Source: Halichondria panicea (lineage: Eukaryota > Porifera > Demospongiae > Suberitida > Halichondriidae). From it: a stretch of DNA of 64,000 nt. Shown here one piece after another: positions 1 through 61,680 of the stretch; the first letter of the stretch is position 1, and every line of letters begins with the position of its first letter. Under the pieces are notes generated by a model, which made no database searches, was not told where the DNA came from, and was given only the letters and a program-made list of their open reading frames with translations. Made by a program: the position numbers and the translations under genes. Where the stretch lies: positions 1,302,001 through 1,366,000 of the forward strand of contig NC_087381.1 in assembly GCF_963675165.1 (NCBI RefSeq). The letters run 5' to 3'.

Positions 1-534
1 TGGTAGACTTTACTTGCTTATTAGCACTGCTCAGCTGCTCAGAAAAGTTGTTTTGAAGGAGCAAAATTGAATGACTGAATTGAGCTTGTAGGATTTGAAT
101 CTGTTGACTGGATTGGTTGTTCAGTTGCTCGTTCATGGACTGTAATTGCTTATTGGTACTGATCATCTGGTTCTTCAACTCTATATTGGTGTACACCAGT
201 GCTGCCACAGCTACCAACAGAGACAGAACAAAAGCTATGACGGCAAAAATTGCAAACCATTTTTTACCATATTCATTTTTAGCCACTTCTTGCCTTATTC
301 TCTTTGTGTTGCTTTTGTTGTCCAGGACACTACTTTCGTTAGATTTAGTATCTCCAGCAGTATCATACGTTATGTATCCAGTGTTCTCAACGGTACTGTA
401 CTTATTATCTGTTTGGGTGAGACTTCTCTGGTTGATATTGTAGGCAGTGTTTTCCTGCAATGAAGTGGCTTGTGTTTCTCTTTCTCTTCTGTTGTTAGCG
501 TGCACAATATATCGTAGGCAGTGTTTAGCTCCAT
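1..534 (-). pseudogene. FReD-like type II receptor copy A, 5' part, frameshifted
   Basis: N-terminal tail, membrane segment and start of the coiled-coil stalk of a family member; the ectodomain would lie beyond base 1. The start ATG at 532-534 is followed by the usual MELNTAY codons. An extra AT dinucleotide near 505-509 (GATATATTGTG where relatives have GATGTTGTG) then shifts the frame, and translation from the ATG stops after about 54 codons. Past the shift the correct frame is intact and reads through the tail, a membrane segment like that of the copy at 32906, and the NEQLNNQSSQ stalk. The defect is one small indel in a dinucleotide run, so a sequencing or assembly error is possible. Confidence 0.8.
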
Positions 535-2615
535 CTTAATTCACTGTTGAAACTCTACCATGCATTGACTCGATATAGAGATGTTGTTACTCTACATAGT
601 TATACAGACTTTGCTGTGTGTTGTATACATCCCAGACATGCAGCACTCGATCACATTGTTTGTCATTCCTCAGTTATACAGTGTATGTCTTCAAATAGCT
701 GATACAGGCTGATATGTTGAGAATTGTATGTGGGAGGCTGCCTATTTGCTTAACTAGGCATATTGTTTGTGAATTAATTCATAGGCCGGGGATTCTTAGC
801 TATTAACAATACACAGTAAAAACACATTCGTTACAGTAACATAAAACATGTTAAATAAAACTCATAGAAATGACATAAATTTCTGTCATTTAACACTAAA
901 ATACGATGATGTGTCTCATAAAACATAATTATGTGTTTTTGCTGTGTAGAGGTGAAAGAGGTGCATAACTGCTGATCGACCCAATTAATAAAAATAATTC
1001 CTAAACCATACATGCAAGCTAGAAGACACGGTCTTGCTAATGGAAGGGTTTGCCTTCGCTAACCAACAAGCGGAATTTCCCCAACCACAACTGAGCAGTT
1101 AGTACGTGATGATGCACTGTTATAACTAAAGAAAAAATTTGTTTGCAAATCCACGAATAAAAATCCAGAGAACGTGGCTAGAAGCCTATAGAAGCTGTTA
1201 GTTTTCATCGCATTGTGAGAAGTTACAGCTGGAACAGACACACATACACACACACTTACCGTATCCCTCGTGTGGCTACGCCTCAAGGCATAATTAGTGT
1301 ATATAAAACTAATTATGGTAACCCTTTTATGTTATAGATAGTACATGGGCATGAAGTATCTATGTGTTATAGTGTCCCATATCACGAGGGCTTTGCCCGA
1401 GGGATAAGGGACACTATATAACCTTAGATCATGTTTGCCATAAATACTGCAATTTGATTGGCTAAAGGAAGTGTTCTATCCAACTTAGAAAATCATGTAC
1501 TTATTAAGAAAATCGTGTACTTACTTAGAAAATCATGCACTTCACTTAGAAAATCATGTAGCAAAGATTAGATAAGAACATTCAAATCTGATTGGCTAAA
1601 TACTCATGGTTGCTATGATCTAAAATACTTAGACACTGTTTAGGAAGTTTCCACATGATGTAGAAGTCCTCAGGGCTAGTAGAACCCTCACTGCATTCGG
1701 GATACTACAACCAGCCCTTTGGGCTTCTAAATCATGTAGAAACTTCCTAAACAGTGTCTAACTATTATATAGATACCGAATGCACATGTGCTAACTGATT
1801 TAGATTCCACTTTTCATTGGCTGCCTCAGGCAAGAAGTGTATCTATAAAAGCAGCAAGCCTTAGCAACAGCTTTATTTTTGAAAATGTCCTGTTCTGATA
1901 AGCTAGATGATTTCTGCTTCTCTGCTAAAAAACCTTTGCATTGGCCTTGCTTCAATATTAGAATGGACAAACTAGTGACTCCACCTTGTGCAGGAAGCGC
2001 TCTGCAACAAATGAGCCCAGCCTCCTCTTTTCTCTGCACTCAAGCTTCTAAGAGTCAGTAAACTGTTCAGATCTGTATGACTAGCTAGCAAGGAACAGCT
2101 TGTAGCAATGCTACAGTGCACTATCGTTCCCAAAAAGACACAGGAGTCTACTGAAGTAAACAATTTTGAAACATGGCTACAGGATAGAAACAGAAGTCAA
2201 GAGGACAAAGTTGACAAGTGCTACATGTAGAAGACATGCTTTCATGGTTGTGACAATGGACCCAGAACAGTTAAAATCATTGGCTCTTAGTGTTCCTCAT
2301 AGAGACAAGAAAAGATACTGGTGAACCCTACCATTAACCCAGCAAACGCTATAGAAACTGGTAGTGAAAAAAAACTGAACAGCCATAGCTAATTTTCATG
2401 CATGCAGCTACAGATTTACTTATCATTTCTGTACATTCAAAAAATTATACTTGTACTTTATATACCCTCAAGCTTATAATTCCCTGGGAAACTATGAGAT
2501 TATGGCTCATAATTCCCTGCTAAACACATACAAGTGGGATCTAAAAAATTGTAACACACATTAATTTCTATGTCTCGTCCTGCTATAGTGTCTATAATTG
2601 TTTTGAGCGTGCGAT
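535..2615. other. Repeat-rich intergenic region
   Basis: No supportable gene. It contains the family's 5' flank (535-760), a dispersed repeat with a CA/TG run and a TTATGCCTTGAGGCG-type core (about 1140-1300, minus orientation; relatives near 49.7, 57.3 and 59.1 kb), a hairpin whose arms read TATAGTGTCCC/GGGACACTATA (about 1367-1420), four spaced copies of TTAGAAAATC(A/G)TG (1480-1560), and an inverted-repeat element at 1629-1761. A 60-codon ORF at 1879-2061 lies downstream of a TATAAAA-like sequence but has no recognisable domain, so I do not call it. Confidence 0.5.
1629..1761. mobile_element. MITE-like element, TTAGACACTGTTT TIRs
   Basis: A 133 bp element with near-perfect terminal inverted repeats of about 23 bp, beginning TTAGACACTGTTTAGGAAG and ending in its complement. 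Related elements with the same ends lie at 6816-6912 and 18867-18984. The interior is itself imperfectly palindromic (CGGGATACTA). It has no coding capacity, so it is a non-autonomous element; I did not assign a superfamily. Confidence 0.7.
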
Positions 2616-3878
2616 TCAACGGACGTACACATCAACTAGCTCAATGGGTGTGTCTTCATTGCTAATGCGCTCATCACCACAAAGCCTCAACTCAATATCA
2701 TCTGTAGTTGGTTGAGGGAGTTGCTTGCAGAACCACGGTGGATTGTTGAACTCACAGCAAGCACTGGTACTCCCGCATTCCTGACCATCCCAGAGTGGAT
2801 CATCAGGGTAAAAGGTATCACTAAATGCTCGTCGACTTCCAGTTTCACAGAAGTAATCTTGACCAATGAATGGAGGTACAACTCCATCCCAGGGGAGGTC
2901 AGGTCTTGTGCAGGGACATACCCGTCTATCGATTTGAGTTTCATCGACTGCATTCACAAATGTCCAGATGTGCTGACGAGGCGAGTTACCATGAGTTAGG
3001 CTCACGCCATCAACGTAAATATCATCAATAGATACCTTTCTGTTGAAGAAATATGGAGTGAAAGCATCCGGAGTGCTACTTTGATATGCAATGATTCGAC
3101 CACAAACTTTTGAATACTCCACCCCATAAGTTGAATAGGTAGTAGACAGACATCCCAGTGCACGTTTTCCACAAGTACGCAGTGGTGGTGTCGTCCTGAT
3201 TACCAGTCTAAATCCTTCTGGGCAGTTTTGGTTGGAATCGGTCATGTCAAGGTTGGCTACTCTCATCCATCCTCCTGCAGTGTTGCACCTACAACTTGTT
3301 CGAATCATGTCACAGTAGACCTGGACAGGAGAGCTAGTACTCTCAGTCACAATCCAGTATTCTCCTGATAGTCGGTCTTGAGAGATGTCACTGCAAGAGC
3401 TAGCTGGGTTGTTGATTGTTCCAAGATTAAATGGATCAATTGTGTTGGATTGGTTATTTAGTTGTTCCGTCATTGACTGATCCTCCTGGTTCTTCAACTC
3501 TATATTGGAGTACGCGAGTGCTGCCGCGAGTGCTGCCACAGCTGCTAACAGAGACAAAAAAACAAAAGCTAGGACGGAAAGGATTGCAAACCGCTTCTTA
3601 GTACATCCATTTTTAGTTAAGACTTGCCTTGTTCCACTATTTGTATTGCTCAGAACGTTGGAGGTAGAATTAGTTTCTGCTGTAAACACTTCTCTGTTTA
3701 CTGCATAGGCTGTGTTAATTTTCGATGCAAATGTTTCTCTCCCATTGTTCTCAACCACAGTGTAGCCATTATCTTGGGTAGAATCGTTATTGTAAGCAGT
3801 GTTTCCTTGCAATGCAATGGCTTGTGTTTCTTTTGTGTTGTTAGCGTGCGCAACTTTGTAGGCAATGTTTACTTCCAT
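2616..3878 (-). CDS. FReD-like type II membrane receptor, intact copy B (420 aa)
   Basis: Uninterrupted single-exon ORF. Residues 1-96 form a polar tail with tyrosines in repeated contexts (IAY, NTAY, DNGYTVV, NTAY). CTKKR precedes a membrane segment at about 97-122, and positive-inside polarity puts the C-terminus outside. A short stalk (123-154) has NNQS sequons. The ectodomain (155-420) opens SCSDI..SGEYW and PVQVYCDM..GGWMRVANLDM, as in the N-terminal half of fibrinogen-related domains, then runs through CGRIIAYQ, SIDDIYVDGVSLTHG, PRQHIWTF, IGQDYFCETG and CCEFNNPPWFCKQLPQPTTDD. Two scaffold residues differ from most copies (QECGSTSACC for QGCGGTSTCC). The membrane segment carries an extra Ala-rich repeat. 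The usual family TATA box is absent upstream. Likely cell-surface binding or recognition; ligand unknown. Confidence 0.88.
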   Translation of the reverse strand: MEVNIAYKVAHANNTKETQAIALQGNTAYNNDSTQDNGYTVVENNGRETFASKINTAYAVNREVFTAETNSTSNVLSNTNSGTRQVLTKNGCTKKRFAILSVLAFVFLSLLAAVAALAAALAYSNIELKNQEDQSMTEQLNNQSNTIDPFNLGTINNPASSCSDISQDRLSGEYWIVTESTSSPVQVYCDMIRTSCRCNTAGGWMRVANLDMTDSNQNCPEGFRLVIRTTPPLRTCGKRALGCLSTTYSTYGVEYSKVCGRIIAYQSSTPDAFTPYFFNRKVSIDDIYVDGVSLTHGNSPRQHIWTFVNAVDETQIDRRVCPCTRPDLPWDGVVPPFIGQDYFCETGSRRAFSDTFYPDDPLWDGQECGSTSACCEFNNPPWFCKQLPQPTTDDIELRLCGDERISNEDTPIELVDVYVR

Positions 3879-4928: not shown

Positions 4929-4929
4929 C

Positions 4930-5330: not shown

Positions 5331-5331
5331 T

Positions 5332-7353: not shown

Positions 7354-8761
7354 TCAGCGTATGTGCATCTCAACTAGCTCAATTAATGGGTGTGTTTTCA
7401 TTAAATGTCCTCATTACCACAAATCCTCAACTCGATATCGTCTGTAGTTGGTTGAGGGAGTTGCTTGCAGAACCAAGGTGGATTGTTGAACTCAAAGCAA
7501 GTACTGTTACCCCCGCATCTCTGACCATCCCAGAGTGGATAATCAGAATAAAAGGTATCATAAGTAAAGAGCTGTCGGCTTCCAGTTTCACAGAAGTAGT
7601 CTTGACCGATGAAGGGAGGTACAAATCCAATGTATAGGGGAAGTCGGGACGTGTACAAGGACAAGCCTCGCCATCGGATCGGGTTTCATCGATTGCATTG
7701 ACAAATGTCCAGATATGCTGACAAGGTGACTGTCCATGGGTTAGGCTCACACCATCAATGTAAACATCATCAATAGATAAAGCTCTGTTTTTGAAATATG
7801 GAGCAAAAGCATCTGGTGAACTGTTTTGAAATGCAATGATTCGACCACAAACCTTTGAATACTCCACCCCATAAGTTGAATAGGTAGTAGACATCCCAGT
7901 GCATGTTTGCCACAAGTACGCAATGGTGGTTTTCTGTTCTGGTTACCAGTCTCAATCCCTCTGGGCAATTTTGGTTGGGATCGGTCATATCCAGGTTGGC
8001 TACCCTCATCCATCCTCCTGCAGTGTTGCAGCTACAGCTTGCTCGATTCATGTCACAGTAGACCTGAACAGGAGAGCTAGTACTGTCAGTGGTAATCCAG
8101 TATTCTCCAGATGGTCGGTCTTGAGGGATGTCTTTGCAAGAGCTTGCTGGGTTTCCTATTCTAGTTCCAGGGTAGAATGCCATTGGACCTAACTCCGCAA
8201 TAATGGACTGTACGTCATTGAGGTCTCGAATAATAATTTCAATTTCCTCAGAAGTGTTACTTGAAAGAGCTAGGATTGAATTGCTGAGTTGACTGGATTG
8301 GTTGTTTAGTTCCTCGTTGGTAGACTGTACTTGCTTATTAGTACTGCTCAGTTGCTCAGAAAATTTGTTTTGAAGGGAGTAAAATTGAATTACTGAGTTG
8401 AGCTTGTAGGATTTGAATCTGTTGACTGGATTGGTTGTTCAGTTGCTCGTTCATTGACTGTACCAGCTTATTGGTACTGATCATCTGGTTCTTCAACTCT
8501 ATATTGGTGTACACCAGTGCTGCCACAGCTACCAACAGAGACAGAACAAAAGCTATGACGGCAAAAATTGCAAACCATTTTTTACCATATTCATTTTTAG
8601 CCACTTCTTGCCTTATTCTCTTTGTGTTACTTTTGTTATCCAGGACACAACTTTCGGTAGATTTAGTATCTCCAGCAGTATTACGCAGTGGCAGTGGCTT
8701 GTGTTTCTCTTTCTCTTCTGTTGTTAGCGTGCACAACATTGTAGGCAGTGTTTAGCTCCAT
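7354..8761 (-). pseudogene. FReD-like receptor copy C, several frameshifts
   Basis: Full-length layout but not translatable. From the ATG at 8759-8761 the MELNTAYNVVHANNRR frame hits a stop after about 26 codons because part of the tail is deleted (CCACTGCGTAATAC). The tail-membrane-stalk part (8356-8739) is open only in another frame. Further shifts fall near 7935 (RTE then out of frame, where relatives read PPLRTCG) and near 7635 (before VPPFIGQDYF), and a stop follows the CGNEDI segment. Ectodomain pieces remain well conserved, for example IDETRSDGEACPC and CETGSRQLFTYDTFYS. The VR1 cassette is the CGKHALGC type shared with the copy at 40748. Confidence 0.85.
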
Positions 8762-10322
8762 AACATTCACTGTTGAAACTCTACCAGAGAGGCTGTTACT
8801 GTATATACAGACTCTGCTGTGTTGTATACATCTCAGTGCAGCACGCGCTACATTTCCTTGTTTTTTCTAATTGGTATTTACCGCTTACACAGTATGTCAT
8901 CTGCTTTCGATCGACAACAAGTGTGGGAGGCTGCCCATTGGGAATTCTTAGCTAAACTCTATAATATACTTGAGTTGAGTTGGGTCCTCAAGGCCACTGT
9001 TGTTGCATACTTGTTTCAGATCTACCTCCCTCCTCGGTTTTGCTCACCGCCTCCATTAAGTCATTACTGCTGATGTCAGCACTATTTGACGTCAAAGTTC
9101 AAAAAAATCAAACGTCACTTCTATCTATTAGTACAACCAGTAGGTTGTACATAGAATTGACACTCACAGTGCTATTGACTGTGTGTGTTTTCAATTATTG
9201 CACACATTTTCACTCGTGTTCAAAATGCTCTATTTCTGCAGGAAAAGGCCACATCAAGAAACTGACTGAACAGATAGCTTATTATAATTATACTTAGTGG
9301 TTTGATATACTTAGTGGTTTGACATAACTTGCAATGTTTATATAGAGCAAGCCAATATTGATTACCGGCCGTAGTAATATAATTATTGGTGTATGGTGGG
9401 CCGTTTGTTTCAAAATTCAAATGTTACATTTTCATTCAGATTACAATACATATTCATTCAAGATACACGTTCATTCAAGATTTTGATGCATTCATATATA
9501 TACATTAATTCGTTCAAGATATGCATACAGTCATTAAAACACAACGTTTAATTATAAGAGATGATTAATGGTCAAAACTCGGAAATCGGCAATTAAATCT
9601 GCTTGACCTCCTGTTAAATTTTCGTTGAACTGCCCAAATAAACATTTTCGTACAATTACCTTGAATAATTTGATTTTCGTACGTACCACACTTACGTTAC
9701 CACTAATTGATAACAGCTGCATGATGTACATATTAAATTATACAGTTTTCAAAATATTTTTAAAGTTTTTTCCGAATTTTTTTAATTTACTTTCCTCGAC
9801 TTTTTGACCCTCTTGAACCTCCTTTGGGGTAGCGGAGGATACATGTATATGCATAGATATATGTGTGCATATTCTTCTAAGGTGTGCATGGTCATAGATA
9901 AACGAAAGGGAGGCAGAGCGATAGAGAGAGAGCAGAGGAGGATTGTCACGGTTAAAAGTATGAAGCTGCTGCTTCTGGAGGATTAAATCCCACTCAGCTA
10001 GCTCTCCGGAGTCCGGAGATACTAAAAAAAGAATAGATGTCCTGAATGGAATTCAATTAAAGTTCTCATTCAGGAAGCAGCTTTTGCACATTTTGCATGA
10101 ATTCGAATGCATAAAAATCTTGTATGAAAATTGCACATCTTGATTGAATACTTCAATGAATGTATAAAACGTTCGTGTACAGGTTACGATTAGTGTTATT
10201 ACTTCGTAGGGAATTGCTACAGCTATCACGACGTTCATAGCAATTATTATAGCTGCTATATTATTCAGTTTCTACTCTTGGTTCTAGAGCTATAGCTACA
10301 GTGTGTAAAAACGAAAATGTGT
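8762..10322. other. Intergenic, no supportable gene
   Basis: The family leader is followed by unique AT-rich DNA with TTCATTCAAGAT-like short repeats (about 9430-9530). About 10190-10322 is a 3' flank (TATTATTCAGTTTCTACTCTTG) duplicated at about 58870-58993. Short ORFs here lack recognisable motifs. Confidence 0.4.
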
Positions 10323-11582
10323 TCAGCGAATGTATATTTCGGTAATCTCAATTGGTGTGTCTTCATCACGTAAAGGTTGATCAGCACAAATCCTCAACTC
10401 GATATCGTCTGTAGTTGGTTGAGGGAGTTGCTTGCAGAACCATGGTGGATTGTTGAACTCACAGCAAGTACTGGTACCCCCGCATCCCTGACCGTCCCAG
10501 AGCAAATCATCAGCATAGAAGATACCATTATTAAAGAGCTGTCGGCTTCCAGTTTCACAGAAGTAATCTTGACCGATGAATGGAGGTACAACTCCAGTGT
10601 AGGGACGGGGACGGTCAGGTCTTGTGCAGGGACATACCACTGTTCTCATAGAGCTATCTTCATGAAGTGCGTTAGCAAATGTCCAGATGTGCTGACGAGG
10701 CGAGTGACCATGGGTTAGGCTCACACCATCAACGTAACCATCATCAATAGATAAAGCTCTGTTATCGAAATATGGATCGAAAGCATCCGGAGTACTATCT
10801 TGATATGCAATGATTCGACCACAAACGTTCGAGTACTCCACCCCATAAGTTGAATAGGTAGTAGAAGTACATCTTCGTTCCATTCGGCCACAAGTACGCA
10901 ATGGTGGTTCTTCCCTGGTTACCAGCATCAATTCTTCGGGGCAATTTTGGTTGGGATTGGTCATGTCAAGGTTGGCTACCCTCATCCATCTTCCTGCAGT
11001 GTTGCAGCTACAGCTTGTTCGATTCATGTCACAGTAGACCTGAACAGGAGAGCTAGTACTGTCAGTGGTAATCCAGTATTCTCCAGATGGTCGGTCTTGA
11101 GGAATGTCACTGCAAGAGTTTGCCGGGTTGTTGATTGTTCCAAGATTAAAAGGCTCAATTGTGCTGGATTGGTTATTTAGTTGTTCCGTCGTTGACTGAT
11201 CTTCTTTGTTCTTCAACGCTATGTTGGTGTATACCAGTGCTGCCACAGCTAGCAACAGAGATAAAAAAGCAATAGCTAGAACGGAAAGGATTGCAAACCA
11301 CTTCTTATCACATTCATTTTTAGCACATCCTTGCCTTTTTTTCTTTGTATTGTTCAGAACGTTGGAGGTGGAATTAGTTTCTGTTGTAAACACTTCTCTG
11401 TTTATTGCATAGGCTGTGTTATTTGTTGATGCAAATGTTTCTCTCCCATTGTTCTCAACCATAGTGTAGCCATTATCTTGGGTAGAATAGTTATTGTAGG
11501 CAGTGTTTCCTTGCAATGCAATGGCTTGTGTTTCTCTTCTCTTGTTGGCGTGCGCAACTTTGTAGGCAGTGTTTAGCTCCAT
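10323..11582 (-). CDS. FReD-like type II membrane receptor, intact copy D (419 aa)
   Basis: Intact single-exon ORF beginning MELNTAYKVAHANKRRETQ. Tail tyrosines occur in NTAYKV, NTAYNNY, DNGYTMVEN and NTAYAI. NECDKKW precedes a membrane segment at about 96-118, and the stalk is short (EQLNNQSSTIEPFN). The ectodomain starts at about 147. It carries the full scaffold with its own variable segments: RMERRC after RTCG, LHEDSSMRTVVCPC, and SRQLFNNGIFYADDLLW. In the last, ADDLLW replaces the near-invariant DDPLW. A TATA box lies 77 bp upstream of the ATG. The 5' half and promoter are mirrored by the truncated copy at 32049, marking the outer edge of the large inverted duplication. Confidence 0.9.
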   Translation of the reverse strand: MELNTAYKVAHANKRRETQAIALQGNTAYNNYSTQDNGYTMVENNGRETFASTNNTAYAINREVFTTETNSTSNVLNNTKKKRQGCAKNECDKKWFAILSVLAIAFLSLLLAVAALVYTNIALKNKEDQSTTEQLNNQSSTIEPFNLGTINNPANSCSDIPQDRPSGEYWITTDSTSSPVQVYCDMNRTSCSCNTAGRWMRVANLDMTNPNQNCPEELMLVTREEPPLRTCGRMERRCTSTTYSTYGVEYSNVCGRIIAYQDSTPDAFDPYFDNRALSIDDGYVDGVSLTHGHSPRQHIWTFANALHEDSSMRTVVCPCTRPDRPRPYTGVVPPFIGQDYFCETGSRQLFNNGIFYADDLLWDGQGCGGTSTCCEFNNPPWFCKQLPQPTTDDIELRICADQPLRDEDTPIEITEIYIR

Positions 11583-13309: not shown

Positions 13310-14392
13310 TTAGCGTATGTACATCTTAACTATCTCAATGGGTGTGTCTTCATTACTAATGACCTCATCACCACAAAGCCTCAACTCAATATTGTCTGTA
13401 TAATTATAGTTGATTGAAGGCGTTGCTTGCAGAACCACGGTGGATTGTTGAACTAGTACTGGTACCCCCGCATCCCTGACCATCCCAGACTGGATCATCG
13501 GAATAGAAGATATGGTTATTATGACTAATGTGTTGTCAGCTTCCAGTTTCACAGAAGTAATCTTGACCGATGAAGGGAGGTACAACTTCAGTATAGGGGA
13601 GGTTAGGTCTTGTGCAAGGACACACACTAGAATCGGATTGAGTTTCATCGATTGCATTCACAAATGTCCAGATGTGCTGACAAGGCGAGTGACATAGGTT
13701 AGGCTCACACCCTCAACGTAAACATCATCAATAGATAAAGTTATGTTGAAGAAATATGGGTGAAAAGCATTTTGGAGTGCTACTTTGATATGCAATGATT
13801 CGACCACTTGAGAGATGTCACTACAAGAGCTAGCTGGGTTCATTCTTGTTCCAGGATAGAATGCCATTAGATCTAACTCAGCAATAATATACTGTAGGTC
13901 ATTGAGGTCATTAAGGTCTCGAATAATAATCATTTTGCTCAGAAATGTTGCTTGAAAGAGCTAGGATTGAATTGCTGAGTTGACTGGATTGGTTGTTTCC
14001 CTCGTGGATTGTACGTGCTTGTTGGTACTGATCATCTGGTTTTTCAACTCTATATTGGTGTACACCAATGCTGCCACAGCTACTAACAGAGACAGAACAA
14101 AAGCTATGATGGCAAGGATTGCAAACCACTTTTTAGCACATCTATTTTTAGCCAATTGCAAGCCAAGCCTTTTTTTCTTTGTATTGCTCAGAACAAGTAG
14201 AATTGATTTCTGCTGTAACCACTTTTCTGTTTATGCATAGGCTGTGTTATTTTTCGATGCAAATATTTCTCTCCCATTGTTCTCAACCATAGTGTAGCCA
14301 TTATTGTAAGCAGTGTTTTCCTGCAATGCCACGGCTTGTGTTTCTCTTCTGTTGTTAGCGTGCGCAACTTTGTAGGCAATGTTTAGTTCCAT
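13310..14392 (-). pseudogene. FReD-like receptor copy E, internally deleted
   Basis: Starts with a normal MELNIAYKVAHANNRRETQ, then a 1 bp loss (TATGCATAAAC for TATGCAATAAAC) creates a stop. The ectodomain lacks about 250 bp: DISQ runs directly into the CGRIIAYQ region (VVESLHIKV in a shifted frame). The copy at 28687 has the identical junction, so the deletion predates the inverted duplication. Near the 3' end, CAACTATAATTATACAGAC stands where intact genes read CAACTACAGAC and where the mirror copy holds a 424 bp transposon. Confidence 0.85.
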
Positions 14393-15466
14393 AATTCACT
14401 GTTAACTCCACCGGACCACTGGCTTGAAATAGAGAGGCTGTTACTGTATTGAGGTGCTGCGTTAAGTACAGCACTCGGTACATTTCCTTGGTACATTTCC
14501 CTTTCCTGATTTTTCCTTCTTTTAAAGCATTGCAGCAGTTACAGGTTATGCATGTTATAAGAGAATCGTGGGTGACTTGCATGATGATGCATAACCGTGT
14601 GCATTCATTTTGGCACTTGACAAAACAGTAGTCAAAGCTAGTGCACAACACATCTTATTACATAATCAAGTGTGTAGAGCTTTTGTAGTACAACTCAGAA
14701 GAGGTTCGACATGTACGCATGAATCACTGCAAGTGCTAGTGCATTGGCCTGGCTGGACATTATCACGTGACCGCATTGACATTAATGAACTTGTAGTGAT
14801 TCATACATGCATGTCGATTAGAGCACTAACGTGCAGAACCCTCGGTGGTTGTACCATAATTTCACATGAAAATAAGCTGCAGCTTTCCTACATTGGTGAG
14901 AGCTGCTGGATGTTCACTAGCGGTGGGGCAGGATGAGTACAAATTTTACTCCATGAAAATTACACCCTACATACACGGTATTTGGTATTTCAGTCATCTG
15001 ATGTCAAGGTTGAGAAGTGTGGGAAGCTGCACATTTTAGGGTGCTTAAGAATAACTATAAATTTTGGAAATCATCGCTGCACATTTCAGGGTGCCTATAC
15101 ATTTTGGAATTAGGGAAATCTTATAATTGATTGAAATAATTGTGTAGGGTGGGCTTCTCACCAAAATAATATTAATATCGCTACAAACTGAGATGTAAGT
15201 TCCTACAATGCCGATATAATTATAGTGTCTGCACTCGATAGCTTGTCAATCATGACTCCATTGCTAACATAAAAAGAACGTTAACATAATTATTGTGCTA
15301 CATGTACATGCATATAGTGTACGTATAAAACTAATTATGGTAACCTGTCATATAATTATACCGAAGGTGGCCATCAATCCCAGAAGCTAGTTTGATTCAT
15401 ACACACATTAATGCCTATGTCTCGTCCTACTATAGTGTCTATGAATAATTGTCTTGAGCGTGATAT
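14393..15466. other. Intergenic flank, left arm
   Basis: Mirror of about 27650-28680. Contains the GAGGTTCGACATG inverted-repeat element (14703-14816) and family 3' flank (ATTAATGCCTATGTCTCGTCC). No gene seen. Confidence 0.5.
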
Positions 15467-16761
15467 TCAACGAACGTACATCTCAATTATCTCAATGGGT
15501 GTGTCTTCATTGCTAATGACCTCATTTCCACAAAGCCTCAACTCGATATTGTCTGTAGTTGGTTGAGGGAGTTGCTTGCAGAACCACGGTGGATTGTTGA
15601 ACTCACAGCAAGTACTGGTACCACCGCATCCCTGACCGTCCCAGAGTGGATCATCAGGGTAGAAGATAAGCCTAAAGCGCTGTCGGCTTCCAGTCTCACA
15701 GAAGTAATCTTGACCAATGAAGTGAGGTACAGTTCCAGCGTAGGGGAGGTCAGGTCTTGTGCAGGGACATACCGCTTCGTTAATAGAGCTATGTTCGTGA
15801 AGTGCGTTAGCAAATGTCCAGATATGCTGACGAGGCGACTGTCCATGGGTTAGGCTCACACCATTAACGTAAACACCATCAATTGATAAAGATTTGTCAT
15901 GAGTGAAACCATCTGGACTGCCACTTTGATATGCAATGATTCGACCACAAACTTTCGAATACTCCATCCCATAAGTTGAATAGGTAGTGGAAGTACATCC
16001 TGCTGGTCCTTCCACTCGGCCACAAGTACGCAGTGGTGGTTCTGTCCTGGTTACCAGTCTCAATCCCTCTGGGCAGTTTTGGTTGGGATCGGTCATGTCA
16101 AGGTTGGACACCCTCATCCATCCTCCTGTAGTGTTGCAGCTACAGCTTGTTCGATTCATGTCACAGTAGACCTGAACAGGAGAGCTAGTGGTGTTAGTGG
16201 CAATCCAGTATTCTCCAGATGGTCGGTCTTGAGGGATGTCACTGCAAGAACTTGCTGGGTTGTTGATTGTTCCAAGATAAAGTTTTTCAAGAATGCCCTG
16301 CAGTTGCTCGGTCATGAACTGCATTTGCTTATTGCTACTGCTCATCTGGTTCTTCAACTCTTTGGTACTGATCATCTGGTTCTTCAACTCTACATTACTG
16401 TACACTAGTGCTGCCACAGCTATTAACAGACACAGAACAAAAGCTATGACAGCAAGAAATGCAAACCACTTTTTAGTGCATTCGTTTTTAGCTAAGCGGT
16501 GCCCTTTTTCCTTTGCATTGCTCAGAACGTTGGAGGTAGAATTGGTTTTGTTGTACACATTTTTCCATAGGCTGTGTTATTTTTCGATGCGAATGTTTCT
16601 CTCCCATTGTTCTCAATGAGACTGTAGACATTATCTTGGGAGGAATTTATTTCATCTGAAGAAATCTCGTTGATATCATAAGCAGTGTTTTCCTGCAATG
16701 CAGTGGCTTTTCCTCGTCTGTTGTTGGCGTGAAAAACATTGTAGGCAACGTTTGGCTCTAT
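15467..16761 (-). pseudogene. FReD-like receptor copy F, near-identical mirror of copy I
   Basis: Paired with the intact gene at 26350. From the NSTSN segment to the C-terminus I count four amino-acid differences over about 359 residues. Two lesions stop it being a straightforward gene. The expected ATG is ATA (16759-16761). One A is also missing from an A-run (ACAAAACC for ACAAAAACC, about 16552), which separates the tail from the membrane and ectodomain parts. The TATA box is retained (16839-16845, minus). A downstream in-frame ATG at 16558 could give a 363-residue protein without most of the tail. Either a recent pseudogene or an N-terminally altered gene. Confidence 0.8.
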
Positions 16762-17409
16762 AATATTCACTATTGAAACTCTACCACTGACTTGAAATAG
16801 AGAGGCTGATACTGTATGGAGTTATTATAGGTACTGCGTTTTATACATTAAGTGCAGCACTTGGTAAGTATTTCCCTTCCAGATTTGTCTATAATGCATC
16901 GATGAGTTACAGGTTGTTGTGTAACTTGTTTACAAGAGAAGTGTGCATGGGAGGCTTGCATGATGATTCTACCGCTTGCTTGTTTGTTCTAACTGCTTGC
17001 GTGATGATTCATTCATTTTAGCACTGCATGCGCATGATAACACAACACCTTGTACCATGGTTTCACCAAAGATCGGTTTTAATTACATGCATATATACCT
17101 TGGCTGTTACAATAATGCTCTTTTTGCAGAAACTTCGATAGTTGGTGTGTATACATTCCTGTACTTTTATAGGAAGTTTTGCAAGGTGCATGCATGTGGA
17201 TGGTGCTTAGAACACACACTTAGCCAAGACTAAGTTTAGTTATACAACTTGACCAGTTTTCTACCTGGCTGCATTTGAATCCATTTCATTCAATGTCTCA
17301 ATTTGCTTGTATTTTTCATGAGAACAGTAACTAGTTTAACAGGTTCAGCTGTGCGCTCAAATGAATCTCGGCTAGCTAAGTATGGTTTCATTCCAGTGGT
17401 ATCTCCCTA

Positions 17410-20476: not shown

Positions 20477-21524
20477 AATTCACTATTGAAACTCTATATA
20501 TCACTGACTTGAAATAGAGAGGCTGTTACTGTACATGCATGCGGTTAGTTGTCGTGTTTTACATTTTACTAAATGCAGCACTCGGTATATTTCCCTCTAA
20601 TTGATATCTTACTTTATAATTATGTCAACAGTTACAAGAGAATAGTGGGAGGCTTGTGGTATGTTGATTCTACCGCTCGTATGTTTGGTCTAACCCCTTG
20701 CATGATGAGTTATTCATTTTGGCACTGTTTGTTACACACCTTGTTGCCCAGTGAGTGGGCAGATCAAAGCAATCCAGTGCTCAGTATAATTATGGCATGT
20801 TGCATCACTACCATGGCAACCCGTGCTGGGCAATAACTAATACATAAGTATACTTAGTAGTTTGACACAATTATTATGGCAATGTTTGTACAGAGCAGAA
20901 CGATATTGATTCCTCGTAGTAAACACCAATTGCAGCACTAAAGATATTTGCATGAATTCCCCTCATTTATAACTTTGTCATCAAATGTCATAAAGATACT
21001 TGCATTAAGAATTGCCCTCTTAATAATTATAATTATAACTTTGTCATAGTTTATTCAAATGTCATAATTACCAATTATGGTGTAGTAATTACAAACACTA
21101 ACTGTATTAAATTGCAATCACAACATGCTAAAATTCTGATAATTAGATCTATAAGTGGCAGATGTTTCTATGCTCCAAAATAATAATTGTTACGGATTCG
21201 ATATATGCAGAATGATAACAAAGCCTACACTTAAACAGTTCACTCATTGTATGAGGAACCAGATCAATACACGTACCACATGCCGAGATACTACGATCAG
21301 CCCTTGGTCTTCTAAATCACTTAGAAACTTCCCTTGTTTAGGCGTTACGTACACAGGACTTGCACATTCCAGAGCTGTTATGGCTAGAGAATAGTGCATT
21401 ACACGCATCCTTATGACGCTCCAATTGCTCCTGATAAAACACAGCAACTATAACTCTCTATACAGTTATTATTATGTAAAAGCCTCTCTATTTAAAGTCA
21501 GTGACAGAGTTTCAACAGGGAATT
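20477..21524. other. Divergent intergenic region between G(-) and H(+)
   Basis: The orientation of the array flips here, with genes diverging from about 21 kb. It contains a CCCAGTGAGTGGGCAGATC repeat half (about 20750-20840, related to 55300-55380) and a flank block (about 21085-21480) nearly identical to 40190-40585. No gene seen. Confidence 0.5.
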
Positions 21525-44882: not shown

Positions 44883-45158
44883 GTGTATCCAAACACTGCC
44901 TACGATGTTGTGCACGCTAGCAACAGAAGAGAAAAAGAAACACAAGCCCCTGCATTGCAGGAAAGCACTGCTTATCTAGTACAATAATCACAAAATTTCT
45001 TGAGATGAGAGATATTCCTCCCAAGATAATGACTATACAGTGTCATTGAGAACAATAGGAGAGAAACGTTCGCATCGAAAATTAATACAGCCTATGCAAT
45101 AAACGAAGAAACGAATATAACAGAAAGTAATTCTTGGAACAAGATTATTGCTGCATAA
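44883..45158 (+). pseudogene. N-terminal tail fragment, duplicate of 24685-24958
   Basis: Leader and tail codons (YPNTAYDVVHASNRRE) survive, but the ATG has become GTG and the frame breaks after the ESTAYL segment. The fragment ends at GCTGCATAA like its partner. No membrane segment. Confidence 0.7.
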
Positions 45159-46528: not shown

Positions 46529-46609
46529 CGTGGGAAGTACATTAACCCCATGCATGCACAGTAACAACCTCTCTATTTCAAGTCAGTGGTAGAGTTTCAA
46601 CTGTGAATT

Positions 46610-47860
46610 ATGGAGCTAAACACTGCCTACAAAGTTGCGCACTCCAGCAAGGGAAGAGAAACACAAGCAATTGCATTGCAAGGAAACACTGCCTACAATA
46701 TCTATTCTACCCAAGATAATGGCTACACTATGGTTGAGAACAATGGGAGAGAAACATTTGCATCGAAAAATAACACAGCCTATGCAATAAACAGAGAAGT
46801 GTTTACAACAGAAACTAATTCCACCTCCAACGTTCTGAGCAATACAAACAAAAAAAGGCAAGGATGTGCTAAAAACAGATGTACTAAGAAGTGGTTTGCA
46901 ATCTTTACCGTCCTAGCTATTGCTTTTTCCTCTCTGTTAGTAGCTGTGGCAGCACTGGTGTACACCAATATAGTGTTAAAGAACCTGGAAGATCAGTCAA
47001 TGACGGGACAACTAAATAACCAATCCAGCACAATTGAGCCTTTCAATCTTGGAACAATCAACAACCCGGCAAGCTCTTGCAGTGACATCTCTCAAGATTG
47101 ACCATCTGGAGAATACTGGATTGCCCCTGACACTAGCTCTCCTGTTCAGGTCTACTGTGACATGAATCGAACAAGCTGTAGCTGCAACACTGCAGGAGGA
47201 TGGATGAGGGTAGCCAACCTTGACATGACTGATCCTAACCAAAACTGCCCAGAGGGATTGAGACTGGTAACCAGAACAGAACCACCATTGCGTACTTGTG
47301 GCCGAATAGAAGGACCAGCACGATGTGTGTCTACTACCTATTCAACTTATGGGGTGGAGTACTCAAAAGTTTGTGGTCAAATCATTGCATATCAAAGTAG
47401 TACTTCAGATGCTTTCGATCAATTCTTCAAAAACAGATCTTTATCTATTGATGATGGTTATGTTGATGGTGTGAGCCTAACCCACGGACAGTTGCCTCGT
47501 CAGCACATCTGGACATTTGCTAATGCAATCGATGAAACTCAATCCAATAGATTGGTGTGTCCTTGCACAAGACTTGACCTCCCCTACATTGGAGTTGTAC
47601 CTCCCTTTATTGGTCAAGACTACTTCTGTGAAACTGGAAGCCGACAAGAACATACATTTACTTTCTACCCTGATGATCCACTCTGGGACGGTCAGGGATG
47701 CGGGGGTACCAGTACTTGCTGTGAGTTCAACAATCCACCGTGGTTCTGCAAGCAACTCCCTCAACCAACTACAGACGATATCGAGTTGAGGCTTTGTTCT
47801 GATGAAAGCATTTATGATGAAGACACACCCATTGAGATAATAGAGATGTACGTACACTAA
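46610..47860 (+). pseudogene. FReD-like receptor copy O, one in-frame stop
   Basis: The entire 417-codon frame is preserved except for one TGA (47099-47101), where every other copy has a CGA arginine codon in QDRPSGEYW. A clean in-frame loss of codons (IAPDTSSPVQVYC) follows. Tail is D-like (NTAYKV, NTAYNIY, DNGYTMVEN, NTAYAI), stalk short, VR1 RIEGPARC, VR3 IDETQSNRLVCPC, VR4 SRQEHTFTFYPDD, and the last residues are EIIEMYVH with His for the usual Arg. The promoter is intact. A CGA-to-TGA change is a typical CpG transition, so this may be a recent or polymorphic null. Confidence 0.8.
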
Positions 47861-48424: not shown

Positions 48425-49282
48425 TACTAGGGTGTACACCAATATAGAGTTGAAGAATAACCAATCCAATCTTGGAACAATCAACAACCCAGCAAGCTCT
48501 TGTATAATAGTGACATCCTTCAAGACCGACCATCTGGAGAATATTGGATTGTCACTGACAGTACTAGCTCTCCTGTTCAGGTCTACTGTGACATGAATCG
48601 AACAAGCTGTAGCTGCAACACTGCAGGAGGATGGATGAGGGTAGCCAACCTTGATATGACTGAATTCAACCAAAACTGCCCCGAGAGATTGAGACTGGTG
48701 AACAGGACAGAACCACCATTGCGTACTTGTGGCCGAGAAGGACCAGCAGGATGTACTTCCACTACGTATTCAACTTATGGGGTGGAGTATTCGAAAGTTT
48801 GTGGTCGAATCATTGCATATCAAAATAATACTCTCACTCCTTATTTCATTAACATATCTTTATCTATTGATGATGTTTACGTTGATGGTGTGAGCCTAAC
48901 CTATGGACAGTCGCCTCGTCAGCACATCTGGACATTTGCTGGTGCAGTCGATGAAACTCGATCCGATGCTCATGTGTGTCCTTGCACAAGACCTGACCTT
49001 CCCTACACTAGAGTTGTACCTCCCTTCATTGGTCAAGACTACTTCTGTGAAACTGGAAGCCGACAGCGCTTTATATAATACCTTCTATTCTGATGATCCA
49101 GTCTGGGATGGTCAGGGATGCGAGGGTATACCAGTACTTGCTGTGAGTTCAACAATCCACCGTGGTTCTGCAAGCAACTCCCTCAACCAACTACAAACGA
49201 TATCAAATTGAGGATTTGTGGTGAGCAATCTTTAGTCGATGAAGACACACCAATTGAGATTGCCGAAATATACATCCGCTGA
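48425..49282 (+). pseudogene. FReD-like receptor copy Q, 5' truncated
   Basis: Starts abruptly at the end of the membrane segment (YTNIELKN), then the stalk is almost gone. An insertion (TGTATAATAGTGAC for TGTAGTGAC) shifts the start of the ectodomain. The frame is open to SRQRFI, stops, and continues in another frame (FYSDDPVWDGQGCEG). VR3 (VDETRSDAHVCPC) and the C-terminus (GEQSLVDEDTPIEIAEIYIR) match copies M and R. The 3' flank also matches M. Confidence 0.82.
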
Positions 49283-53209: not shown

Positions 53210-53660
53210 GTATTGCTTGATCATCTTCCCCCACCCCTCACCTAGTATCAGCTGGCACTGAGATGCTCTCCTCTCCAATATTCTGTTTTTACGCTAATGT
53301 AACAGTAAATCAATTAACTTGCCGTAATAATTTTTAATGAACTGCCTTGCATTGCTGTCCCGTTCTTTACAGAAGCGCTTCAACAGCCATTTGAAAAATG
53401 CTACTGAAAGCTTATTCTCTATAATAATTGTCATTAATTTTGTCATGTATTGTATCGGGCCACCAATTCTGCTGTTTGAATAGTATGGTAAAAGTGAGAT
53501 GTAATACGTAACCCCATTGCTAACAAAAAAAAAAAGTTACTATATTAATGTAATGCAACCTGGCCATTCAACCATAGATGATTACAAACTAGATTTTTTT
53601 AAAACAGCATGTACCCAGGTCTCGGCTCTAATACTGTCTATCTGCATTTAATTGTCTTGA
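53210..53660. repeat. 3' flank duplicated from/with 4930-5330
   Basis: GCTTGATCATCTTCCCCCAC through GCATTTAATTGTCTTGAGC. It also contains the CATGTACCCAGGTCTCGGCTC block that follows copies H and N. Confidence 0.7.
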
Positions 53661-53661
53661 G

Positions 53662-55236
53662 CAAATGTCCAGATGTGCTGACGAGGCGACTGACCATGGG
53701 TTAGGCTCACACCATCAACGTAAACATCATCAATAGATAAAAATCTGTTGTCGAAATATGGATTGAAAGCATCCGGAGTTCTACTTTGATATGCAATGAT
53801 TCGACCACAAACTTTCAAATACTCCATCCCATACGTTGAATAGGTAGTGGAAGTACATCCTGGTTCTTCTACTCGGCCACAAGTACGCAGTGGTGGTTCT
53901 GTCCTGGTTACCAGTCTCAATCCCTCTGGGCAGTTTTGGTTGGGATCGGTCATGTCAAGGTTGGCTACCCTCATCCATCCTCCTGCAGTGTTGCAGTTAC
54001 AGCTTGTTCGATTCATGTCAAAGTAGACCTGAACAGGAGAGCTAAAGGTGTCAGTGGCAACCCAATATTCTCCAGATGGTCGGTCTTGATGGATATCACT
54101 ACAAGAGCTAGCTGGGTTGTTGATTGTTCCAAGACAAAATGACTCCAGTTCTTCAAGGATAGACTGTACGTCGTTGAGATTTTTCAAAATATGTTTGAAA
54201 TGTTGCTTGAAAGATCTACAATTGAATTGCTGAGTTGACTGGATCGGTTGTTCAGTTCCTCGTTGATAGACTGTACTTGCTTATTGGTACTGCTCAGCTG
54301 CTTAGAAAAGTTGTTTTGAAAGAGTACAATTGAATCATTGAGTTGAGCTTGTAGGGTTTGAATCTGTTGACTGGATAGGTTGTTCAGTTTCTCGTTCATG
54401 GACTGTACAGTGCATCCAGTCTAGAGAGTAGAATACAAAAATTGGTGAGTAGTTGTACTTAGATGTATCTCAAGATTGGAACATTTCTAAGAAATTGTGC
54501 TGATACCATTGTATAGGTAAAAGAATAAGCTACAACACAGTTCAAAAATATTTCCCCAAAAGTTGTTGTAGTGGGAAATAATTTTAGGAGATAATGGGGT
54601 GATTATAAAAAAATGTACGTAACATCAATTATCTCTGGAACTAAAGTATTTTTGGAAAATTTTTTCTTATCAAAAGTTTAACAATTTATTCAAGCTTACT
54701 CTGTGTAATTTTTAGACCTTAGCCGTGAGATTGTCTTCAAATCTCTCCCTAACCGAAACGGCACTAAAAACTAGCAATTTTGAGCACTGCAGAGGATGTG
54801 TAGATATTTAAGTAACATCGAATCTTTCATAAGATAGCCAAACTATCTATAGATGTTGTGACAAAGTTCCAAACCTTAGCCGGAAACCGTTGGCCTTTTC
54901 TCTCCCTAACCGATTACCCACTATAACAATTGGGTACTGTTTTATTAATCACAACAAACCCACCATCTTATGTTGTCATGGAAACAATTTTGGACGTATT
55001 GTAGCTCATTCATTTGCCCACTCAATGGTATCAGCAGATTTTCTTAGAAATGTTCCAATCATAAGATATTTACATTTAAGTACAACTACTCACACATTTT
55101 TGGTATTCTACTGGATGCACTGTACTTGATTTGGTACTGATCATCTGGTTCTTTAACTCTATATTGGTGTACACTAGTGCTGCCACAGCTAGCAATATAG
55201 ACAGAATAAAAGCTACGATGACAAGAATTGCACAAA
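53662..55236 (-). pseudogene. FReD-like receptor copy P, truncated at both ends and transposon-split
   Basis: In transcription order it begins inside the membrane segment (about 55236, CAILVIVAFILSILLAVAAL), continues to the stalk start, is interrupted by a 713 bp element (54409-55121), resumes with the NEKLNNLSSQQIQTLQAQ stalk, a frameshift near 54186, and an ectodomain open through HGQSPRQHIWTFA. There it is cut and joined directly to the gene's own 3' flank (CTCAAGACAATTAAATG), losing the VR3-to-C-terminus part. VR1 is RVEEPGC as in copy H. One conserved Cys codon is changed (QVYFDMN for QVYCDMN). Confidence 0.85.
54409..55121. mobile_element. 713 bp TIR element in copy P, GTAC target duplication
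   Basis: Ends AGTGCATCCAG...CTGGATGCACT, with imperfect TIRs extending about 70 bp (GAGTAGTTGTACTTA, GATTGGAAC). GTAC is duplicated at 54405-54408 and 55122-55125, and removal restores GACTGTACTTG of the stalk. It has no transposase; a short ORF at 54890 shows no known motif. Confidence 0.83.
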
Positions 55237-55645
55237 ATCTTCTTGCAGTTCGCTTCTGCAGTTGACTTTTTCAGTTGCTCAATCTCACAATCTCACTTGT
55301 TGCCCAGTGAGTGGGCAGATCAAAGCAATCCAGTGCTCAGTATATGGCATGTTGCATCACTGCCATGGCTACCATATATTGCACTGGATTATATGCACTT
55401 GCACTGTGTGTAAATGCAGTAGATTTCTTTAACCATTTGGGACTTATGCCCCACCATCCCACCTAATAACTCATTTGGTTCGTTTTATAGGCTACTACTT
55501 TTATAACTACTAGTGGGAAGAAAACCTAAAAATTTACTATGGAATTCAGCAAACTAATGAATACACTAAATTCCTTCAAAACACATGTCTTTTATTACGA
55601 TTTATATGACCAGTCAGACGAGTTTAACGTTATTGGGCAACAAAT

Positions 55646-58993: not shown

Positions 58994-59079
58994 TCAGCGG
59001 ATGTATAATTCGGTAATCTCAATTGGTATGTCTTCATCGAATGAAGATTGATCAGCACAAATCCTCAACTCGATATCGT
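58994..59079 (-). pseudogene. C-terminal fragment of a D-like receptor
   Basis: Last 28 or so codons only (DIELRICADQSSFDEDIPIEITELYIR plus stop), with the D-type 3' flank. Its upstream side breaks into an AGTGCAAGTAAGAGTTTC repeat. Confidence 0.75.
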
Positions 59080-59315
59080 GTGTCTGCTCAAGGTTCGATG
59101 AAGTGCAAGTAAGAGTTTCTATAGGCTTCTTGTCATGGACCAAAATGTGTTGTTCTAGTAACAACTTTTGGGTTGCCTATACACTTGTTCTATAATTTAA
59201 CACCTCATAGTTGTTAATGCTAAACAATACAGGTTGTTACTATACTATACAATTCTCTGCATGGAACATTAATCCCTGGAACATTAATCGTGTAACTTGA
59301 TACGCATGTTCATAA

Positions 59316-59873: not shown

Positions 59874-59879
59874 ATTATA

Positions 59880-60206
59880 TGAATCAGTGACATAGATTAG
59901 CTCAAAAATGGCAACATAATTATAGTCTTTGTGTACATTTTCAATGTCATAAAATTAATGTTCAGGCGACTGCTGTAAATAAAAATAAGCATGAAAAAAA
60001 TTAGTATGAACAATTTCCACTGATTCAAATAATATATATAATCTATATTATGAACATGCGTATCAAGTTACACGATTAATGTTCCAAATGTATAAAATTA
60101 TAAGCACCGTACGCTATTATTCAGTTTCTACTCTTGAGAGCTAGCTTTTCAGTTTCTACTCTTGAGAGCTAGCTTTAATAAATTATGAATAGAAACGAAA
60201 ACATGT
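59880..60206. repeat. M/Q-type 3' flank, inverted
   Basis: Inverted match to 37193-37480 and 49283-49600 (ATTTGAATCAGTG, GCGACTGCTGTAAATA, TTCAGTTTCTACTCTTGAGAGC). The last motif is tandemly duplicated here. Confidence 0.7.
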
Positions 60207-61680
60207 TCAGCGGATGTATATTTCGGCAATCTCAATTGGTGTGTCTTCATCGACTAAAGATTGCTCACCACAAATCCTCAATTCGATATCGTTTGTAGTT
60301 GGTTGAGGGAGTTGCTTGCAGAACCACGGTGGATTGTTGAACTCACATGCAGCAAGTACTATTACCCCCGCATCCCTGACCATCCCAGAGGGGATCATCA
60401 AGGTAGAATATACGACTAACTGCTTGTCGGCTTCCAGTTTCACAGAAGTAGTCTTGACCAATGAAGGGAGGTACAACACTAGTGTAGGGGAGGTCAGGTC
60501 TTGTGCAAGGACACACATGAGCATCGGATCGAGTTTCATCGACTGCACCAGCAAATGTCCAGATGTGCTGACGAGGCGACTGTCCATAGGTTAGGCTCAC
60601 ACCATCAACGTAAACATCATCAATAGATAAAGCTCTGTTAATGAAATATGGAGTGAAAGCATCCGGAGTATTATTTTGATATGCAATGATTCGACCACAA
60701 ACTTTCGAATACTCCACCCCATAAGTTGAATAGGTAGTAGAAGTACATCTTCGTTCCATTTGGCCACAAGTACGCAATGGTGGTTCTGTCCTGGTTACCA
60801 GTCTCAATCCCTCTGGGCAGCTTTGGTTGGGATCGGTCATGTCAAGGTTGGCTACCCTCATCCATCCTCCTGCAGTGTTGCAGCTACAGCTTGTTCGATC
60901 CATGTCACAGTAGACTTGAACAGGAGAGCTAGTACTGTCAGTGGCAATCCAGTATTCTCCAGACGGTCGGTCTTGAGAGATGTCACTACAAGAGCTTGCT
61001 GGGTTGTTGATTATTCCAGGATAGAATGTCATTGGACCTAACTCCGCAATAATGGACTGTACGTCAATGAGGTCTTCATTTTGCTTGGAAATGTTGCTTG
61101 AAAGAGTTAGGATTGAATTACTGAGTTGACTGAATTAGTTGTTCAGGTCCTCAATGGTAGACTGTACTTGCTTATTAGTACTGTTCAGCTGCTCAGAAAA
61201 GTTGTTTTGAAGGAGTTAAATTGAATCACTGAGTTGAGCTTGTAGTGTTTGAATCTGTTGACTGGATTGGTTGTTCAGTTCCTCGTTCATGGACTGTACT
61301 TGCTTATTGGAACTGATCATTTGGTTCTTCAACTCTATATTGGTGTACACCAGTGCTGCCACAGCTACCAACAGAGACAGAACAAAAGCTATGACGGCAA
61401 GAATTGCAAACCATTTTTTACCGTATTCATTTTTATCCAATTCTTGCCTTATTTTCTTTGTGTTGCTTTTGTTGTCCAAAACAATTTCGGTCGATTTAGT
61501 AGCTTCAGCAGTATTATACGTTATGTACGTAGTGTTGTCAACGGTACTGTACTCATTTTCGTCTGTTTGGGTGGGGCTTTTCTGGTTGGCATTGTGAACA
61601 ATGTTTTCCTGCAATGCAGTGGCTTGTGTTCCTCTTCTGTTGTTAGCATGCACAACATTGTAGGCAACGTTTGGCTCCAT
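60207..61680 (-). pseudogene. FReD-like receptor copy R, mosaic and disrupted
   Basis: The tail (MEPNVAYNVVHANNRR) includes VAYNVV, fitting the ITIM consensus [SIVL].Y..[ILV]; DENEYSTVDN follows. The membrane segment is intact. The stalk has two in-frame stops (TTATTG-type codons changed to TAA near 61216 and 61140) and a deletion. The ectodomain is open from MTFYPGIINNPASSC. A 4 bp gain (TGCTGCATGTGAG for TGCTGTGAG, about 60350) shifts the final 46 codons. VR1 (QMERRC) is copy-D-like, whereas VR3 (VDETRSDAHVCPC) and the C-terminus (GEQSLVDEDTPIEIAEIYIR) are identical to copies M and Q. TATA is at 61758-61764 (minus). Confidence 0.85.

Follow-up and report, generated by a model that had tools for sequence, protein, structure and literature searches.

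An array of probable surface recognition receptor genes in the sponge Halichondria panicea, with an ectodomain core akin to proteins of Myxococcota and cyanophages

A dense array of related genes, most of them broken, occupies a 64,000-nucleotide stretch of the genome of the demosponge Halichondria panicea (assembly GCF_963675165.1, contig NC_087381.1, positions 1,302,001 to 1,366,000 of the forward strand). This whole stretch is called the window here and corresponds to C5:1302001-1366000. The genes probably form an array of surface recognition receptors, type II and single-exon, that evolves by birth and death; soluble-looking relatives accompany it, and the tyrosine tails would act in signalling or endocytosis. 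The immune or self/non-self role, and the ligand proposed below, are what we infer. As judged from sequence, the core of the ectodomain is an unnamed domain and not classic fibrinogen.

A survey of the window by its open frames and by tblastn with the intact proteins, in which high-scoring segment pairs were grouped by hand, revealed 21 copies or fragments at positions 1-61683 (Table 1). Four of these are intact, 3 carry a single break, and the 14 others are decayed, fragmentary, or, in one case, cut by the left edge of the window. An original prediction, made from the letters of the window, had proposed about 20 members with 4 intact and 3 near-intact, and these counts fit. All intact copies run from Met to stop within a single exon, contain no internal stop, and encode proteins of 420, 419, 431, and 535 aa. 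Each of the four has one membrane segment (within residues 81-137), a tyrosine-bearing tail, and 16 Cys in the ectodomain, and the stalk is a coiled-coil as judged by eye. The copies are arranged in three strand blocks (minus at 1-20.5 kb, plus at 21.5-49.3 kb, and minus at 53.6-61.7 kb), in agreement with the single gene plan on both strands that had been predicted. The predicted birth-and-death array of type II receptors is likewise supported. Moreover, the 25 longest inverted repeat pairs in the window, of 300-1426 bases, are 85-99% complementary, which excludes chance.

The ectodomain consists of a first module of about 50-65 aa, of GGGWT or fibrinogen-A type, and a core of about 220 aa. 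In a profile search of PDB, the first module (to about residue 65) matched intelectins (E 1e-7), fibrinogen beta (1e-5), and collagen C-propeptides (9e-5), and also tachylectin-5A, FIBCD1, and angiopoietin. Matches of this kind made up 55 of the 57 listed and ended by profile position 75 of 261, those to fibrinogen-related domains (FReDs) by position 55 and those to intelectins by 75; the remaining 2, at E about 2, were taken as chance. A profile of the core by itself matched none of 177635 PDB sequences at E <= 10, and no Pfam, NCBIfam, or PDB sequence match was found for the core. Open frames of three relatives (L002, L003, and L021) hold the core without the first module, which indicates that the core is an independent unit. 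Its signature is the block Y-V/L-D-G-x-S-x-T-x-G...R-x-H, followed by a C-terminal ExR...E-D/E. The original suggestion of a second half that departs from classic fibrinogen and might form a family by itself is supported. The term 'FReD-like' is appropriate for the first 50-65 or so residues and inappropriate for the whole, since Fibrinogen_C scores stay below the cut-off and the PDB similarity is confined to the first module. Intelectin and COLFI were likewise rejected as the identity of the ectodomain, their matches being limited to about the first 70 residues. A collagen triple helix precedes a true COLFI domain, and the 4 intact window proteins have no Collagen match. VitD-bind_III and other weak Pfam matches were taken as chance. 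A literature search with the motif strings of the domain returned no match, and no description of the array or core was found by title or abstract among the matches listed. Cnidarian and lancelet proteins presumably carry the same motif.

Relatives of this ectodomain were found in bacteria. A scan of bacterial and archaeal contigs yielded three Myxococcota loci, L045, L046, and L047, which score 52-66 bits against GGGWT_bact (NF040941, cut-off 30 bits), versus 27.0 bits for P0002, the one window protein scanned (the four intact proteins are numbered P0001 to P0004). L045 holds the whole ectodomain pattern, including the CPC, YC, GC, CC, and PWF blocks. The sponge core profile matched L045 at E 1.6e-45, L046 at 1.8e-28, and L047 at 5.3e-21 and 6.2e-23 in two frames. 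Two phage loci, L042 (4.8e-9) and L044 (1e-10), were matched along roughly the final 155 of the 220 columns. As a control, each of these six sequences was shuffled 50 times, and no shuffle gave the core profile an E below 0.006. With the full profile, four sequences shuffled 60 times each gave no E below 0.0013, and among 38 other frames in loci L042, L044, L045, and L046 the best value was 0.0023. Of 282 Myxococcota genomes, 13 hold a match to the core, which in 11 of them extends along all 214 profile positions; rows of the profile had come from two of the 13. The genome of L045 (G001) contains 70 full-profile (GGGWT-type) matches, one of them full length, and on these matches it holds a large bacterial family in which one constant first module is joined to many different ends. 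Bacterial relatives with other N-terminal parts, such as MopE-type repeats, were also seen. In an unrooted tree of 29 sponge and 15 bacterial cores, from which 10 similar C5 rows, the repeat loci, and the phage rows had been dropped beforehand, a single branch with support 100/99 parts sponge from bacteria, and L064 and L065 form long branches.

Among cyanophages, the sponge core profile matched Syn33_041 at 2.8e-6 and CPPG_00054 of P-RSM1 at 3.6e-10. The C-terminal part of these proteins aligns with the window core, at a low identity of 19-24% to core relatives, and the best PHROG family of both is phrog_1710, whose function is unknown. None of 5 other chosen proteins of the Syn33 and P-RSM1 loci matched the core; Syn33_040 matches the first module at 1.7e-4. 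Syn33_041 shares a block with gp38 and two genes that bear the annotation 'fiber', and CPPG_00054 lies amid hypothetical proteins and a prolyl 4-hydroxylase. When the L045 domain was compared with cultured phages by tblastn, 37 records were obtained at E <= 0.1, of which 4 extend over at least 80% with 22-23% identity. A first scan of genome contigs and a viral scan with A6 returned no match. The phage link became visible only with profiles and the bacterial relatives. PMC3909814 reports that, in variable islands of marine phages, the genes that can be identified often act in recognition, and it lists 3 'fibrinogen-like coiled coil' proteins. Since the core is common to myxobacteria and a phage tail-fibre region, the genes of the array are good candidates for receptors of microbe or self recognition. 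A wider proposal is made tentatively: one ancient surface-recognition domain may be employed by cyanophages in tail-fibre-region proteins, by Myxococcota, and by an animal in a germline-diversified repertoire with reassorted NxAY tails and matching soluble forms, which would be an undescribed innate recognition system.

The family extends far beyond the window, in a genome whose animal nature is borne out by Wnt (10 of 10 matches exceed the cut-off) and which contains a COX1-like stretch with an in-frame TGA. In a protein search of the whole genome (131 Mb, 39 contigs), at least 109 family matches were found on 14 contigs, with split genes counted more than once; this supplies the family count that had been called for. 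C5 carries 56 of the 109, as counted by hand from the listing. The window is the centre of a cluster of about 120 kb, whose matches run from C5:1.254 to 1.373 Mb and so beyond both window edges, and family clusters are located at C5 0.88-0.95, 1.25-1.37, and 1.58-1.62 Mb and at C13 4.1-4.4 Mb. All 43 matches to the tail-plus-membrane module lie on C5. Twelve C5 copies with the window tail type were collected outside the window, one of them overlapping its left edge, and 10 of the 12 reach an apparent start Met, which is no rate, the 12 having been picked for long open frames. Members off C5 have, by eye, other N-terminal parts. Signal-peptide-like starts with coiled-coil-like stretches were recognized by eye in L026 and L029-L032, and Thr/Ser-rich stalks in L002 and L016. 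Pfam identified a collagen stretch in L021 (PF01391, 67.5 bits) and a CUB domain in L015 (PF00431, 41.1 bits); an Ig domain suspected by eye in L007 had no Pfam match at E <= 0.01 and was dropped. In some members the stalk contains repeats of 46 aa. Across 14 members the stalk is 34 to 370 aa long, with the maximum in L033 (G000:C5:1273100-1275500), a protein of 742 aa with about seven copies of a stalk motif. A genome search with PF00147 gave 32 classical FReD matches on C6, C9, C10, and C17, and none on C5. At G000:C6:4161286-4209973, classical fibrinogen_C matches form a tandem array of their own, with 22 listed.

The cytoplasmic tails are rich in tyrosine motifs. NxxY is the core of signals for PTB (phosphotyrosine-binding) domains and of NPxY-type uptake signals, and YxxPhi is the core of SH2 and AP2 sites. 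In 17 hand-chosen receptors with 78 tail tyrosines, NxxY was found at 46 of the 78, versus 9.8 in shuffles. The counts were 37 versus 0.8 for NxAY, 16 versus 0.2 for NxAYxxPhi, and 38 versus 13.5 for YxxPhi. Four NxAY lie within the single tail of L025 and two within that of L018, which is on another chromosome; gene duplication on C5 alone is therefore not the source of these repeats.

Selection was estimated on 22 copies: the 4 intact genes of the window, the open portion of copy 6, and 17 loci collected from C5, some of them soluble-looking. The pooled omega was 0.39 for the ectodomain of these copies and 0.50 for 13 tails, and in sliding windows omega ranged from 0.08 (at NPPWFCKQLPQPTTDDIELR) upward. 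The value of 0.39 indicates that the open copies are under purifying constraint. Variable columns cluster in loops. Local dips in synonymous distance, to 0.07 and 0.12 versus values up to 0.74, fit local gene conversion. Distances between tails do not correlate with those between ectodomains (rho 0.16, p 0.18 in 14 receptors; rho 0.09 in 13 receptors), whereas in the 14 receptors the two halves of the tail correlate with each other (rho 0.80, p 0.002), as do the two halves of the ectodomain (rho 0.54, p 0.006). This pattern suggests reassortment, for which exchange at the membrane or stalk is the simplest reading.

A structure was predicted for the ectodomain with AlphaFold2. With six bacterial and phage rows in the alignment, the model had a pLDDT of 77 and a pTM of 0.82 and consisted almost entirely of strands; with window sequences alone the pLDDT was 30. 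The model is described as a predicted beta-sandwich and no more than that. Neither in PDB nor among viral models did Foldseek find a match at E <= 0.001. The best viral model (E 0.0019, TMq 0.25) is a protein of cyanophage P-SSM4 whose name refers to a fibrinogen C-terminal domain, and this match was too weak to use. In VIA-align the best Z was 7.5, to a meprin region, and rank 50 stood at 6.1, under the level that means much. The rows at Z 6-7.5 include meprin/MAM, carbohydrate-binding modules, galactocerebrosidase, a Cry protein, Eph, and COLFI, and no family stands out. No FReD row was within the top 50 VIA rows, which excludes nothing.

Several of the results weigh against a recognition role or its supporting links. 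Omega exceeded 1 in no sliding window (maximum 0.85), so positive selection was rejected and nothing points directly to an arms race. The NxAY counts are inflated by kinship of the tails, which are not independent; NxAY is absent from the N-terminal parts of some other membrane-anchored members (L013 and L020); and strict ITAM-like (immunoreceptor tyrosine-based activation motif) spacing, YxxL/I-x6-12-YxxL/I with V allowed, occurs only 2 times in 17 tails versus 0.4 in shuffles. All fold matches lie below Z 8, in a range shared with unrelated folds, so that no glycan-binding fold is shown. The window ectodomain, used directly as a tblastn query against phages, found none, and with the bacterial relative as query the phage E values were weak, 1e-4 to 0.1 among the listed rows covering at least 70%. 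Two bacterial frames, L046 (24.9 bits) and the second frame of L047 (24.4 bits), pass the Fibrinogen_C cut-off, over positions 3-50 of 221. Additionally, the similarity to COLFI would also fit a matrix or adhesion role.

Three other explanations were considered. Allorecognition, in which the array would supply polymorphic labels of individuals for tissue fusion, is improbable, though it gains from the dense array with decay, inverted duplication, and reassortment of tails and ectodomains, and graft rejection occurs in sponges. The omega values stand against it, and humoral recognition is at least as good a match for a core that also occurs together with collagen, CUB, and signal-peptide-like parts. 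We give a similarly low chance to cell-cell or matrix adhesion, in which an ectodomain akin to the fibrillar collagen C-propeptide would serve homotypic assembly and not non-self recognition. COLFI (PF01410, cut-off 26.2 bits) is indeed the best-placed Pfam match, with 26.5 bits for P0004, 23.8 for P0003, 20.0 for P0001, and 20.4 for the ectodomain of P0002 (the whole protein was not listed), and it was found at E <= 0.1 in 13 of 26 members. The C-propeptide of collagen III also aligns to model residues 1 to 269 (Z 6.4, root-mean-square deviation 4.3, 164 aligned). However, the P0004 match is limited to COLFI positions 6-74 of 233, the Z of 6.4 is tied with unrelated folds, and matrix genes do not usually have tails with tyrosine motifs, so many copies, or so heavy a load of pseudogenes. 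Classic FReD receptors of the ficolin, FREP, or FIBCD1 kind are the least probable identity: they share the first module, FIBCD1 has the same type II layout, the two bacterial frames named above exceed the Fibrinogen_C cut-off, and the fold check that had been proposed placed the Ang1 FReD at Foldseek rank 45 (E 0.045, prob 0.93, 126 columns, TMq 0.20), but the bacterial scores come from that short N-terminal stretch alone, none of the 32 PF00147 matches lies on C5, the core has no PDB match, and the window genes do not reach the 22-bit cut-off of PF00147: of the four whole proteins only P0004 was listed at E <= 1, with 10.9 bits, the ectodomain of P0002 scored 13.2 bits, and 3 of 26 members had E <= 0.1.

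If the genes encode surface recognition receptors, as we favour, the core would be a surface-binding module, probably carbohydrate-binding, and the stalks would cluster several heads. Ligand binding may lead to tyrosine phosphorylation with SH2 or PTB docking, or to clathrin-type uptake, so that the cell would react to, or engulf, foreign cells, symbionts, or microbes. The repertoire would be renewed as copies are duplicated in tandem or in inverted orientation, decay, and reassort their tails and ectodomains. Type II receptor arrays with decaying copies are already known, and the new element is the ectodomain core that has no match in Pfam, NCBIfam, or PDB. Should the ligand prove to be a glycan on surfaces, the choice of hosts by phages, the recognition of surfaces by bacteria, and the receptors of animals would all be tied together by a single small domain, and early animals would have had a recognition repertoire that is missed by searches for FReD, SRCR, NLR, or Ig domains. 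A direct binding test is possible on soluble domains from animal, bacterium, and phage.

Compared with known systems, the array resembles the Ly49/NKR-P1 and Dectin clusters in its tandem arrangement, type II topology, stalk, tyrosine tail, and many pseudogenes. It differs from them in that the ectodomain has no C-type lectin match, the genes are single-exon, and the tail motif is NxAY and not a plain ITAM or ITIM (immunoreceptor tyrosine-based inhibition motif). FIBCD1, ficolins, tachylectin-5A, and FREPs are alike in the N-terminal 50 or so ectodomain residues and differ in the rest, the window core being unmatched by sequence and the PF00147 cut-off unreached. FReD lectins use coiled-coil or collagen stalks, as do relatives of the window family. 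Intelectins (X-type lectins) join an A-type module to a non-FReD core; they gave the best PDB match, at positions 4-75 of 261, with no match beyond 75. GGGWT_bact proteins of Myxococcota share the N-terminal module, and in a minority of genomes the core, while their N-terminal parts differ. In the sponge Dysidea avara, genes with PF00147, classical FReDs as defined there, respond to microbial cues according to PMC6208332. The cnidarian ficolin-like proteins (CniFL) are described in PMC5094078 as putative recognition proteins, mostly transmembrane and with copy-number variation, identified by Collagen, Ig, and Fibrinogen (PF00147) domains. The window genes differ from these, as none of the three domains exceeds its cut-off in any of the 4 intact proteins.

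Table 1. Gene copies and other features of the array (window positions).
Feature	Position	Strand	Description
Copy 1	1..508	-	5' part, off left edge; 536-aa open frame in L035, usual in-frame start Met not seen
Copy 2	2616..3878	-	Intact type II receptor, 420 aa
Copy 3	7404..8764	-	Decayed, several frame breaks
Copy 4	10323..11582	-	Intact type II receptor, 419 aa
Copy 5	13313..14395	-	Decayed
Copy 6	15467..16764	-	Near-intact, single frame break in tail; in 98-99% inverted duplication with copy 10
Copy 7	19215..20479	-	Near-intact, single frame break in last quarter
Copy 8	21548..23007	+	Decayed
Copy 9	24783..24935	+	Tail fragment
Copy 10	26350..27645	+	Intact type II receptor, 431 aa
Copy 11	28684..30182	+	Decayed; overlaps inverted duplicate of copy 5
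Copy 12	32046..32512	+	5' fragment: tail and membrane segment
Copy 13	32906..34513	+	Intact type II receptor, 535 aa, longer stalk
Tandem repeat in copy 13 stalk	33245..33581	+	Unit 138 bp (46 aa), 2.5 copies
Copy 14	35728..37189	+	Decayed, several frame breaks; ectodomain frame complete
Copy 15	40790..43153	+	Decayed; 1.2 kb insert splits ectodomain
Insert in copy 15	41769..42979		1.2 kb, ends read as inverted repeats, by eye
Copy 16	44892..45152	+	Tail fragment
Copy 17	46607..47860	+	Near-intact, single in-frame stop
Copy 18	48432..49279	+	Decayed ectodomain
Copy 19	53612..55249	-	Decayed, interrupted
Copy 20	58997..59083	-	C-terminal fragment
Copy 21	60207..61683	-	Decayed, at least 2 breaks
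Inverted duplication	Arms 13693..16549 and 26563..29379		Three blocks 98-99% complementary; includes copies 5-6 and 10-11

Several minor features accompany the copies. The insert in copy 15 (41769-42979) is DNA-transposon-like, with an apparent short target-site duplication by eye. The 143-aa frame on the minus strand at 57512-57943 is one that we take to resemble the end of a non-LTR (non-long terminal repeat) retrotransposon protein. An Rfam scan of the window returned nothing at gathering scores. A minisatellite with the unit GTCAGAACAATCA has 29 sites in the window, versus 0.05 in 20 base shuffles, with one mismatch allowed. Apart from single sites, its dense arrays at 32546-32695, 35337-35535, and 61900-62215 are located upstream of copies 13, 14, and 21, in the orientation of the gene, and it is possibly a promoter or recombination element. 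Finally, a 300-bp inverted pair of 99% (37917-38216 and 56626-56925) flanks copies 15-19 and adjoins short tandem repeats.

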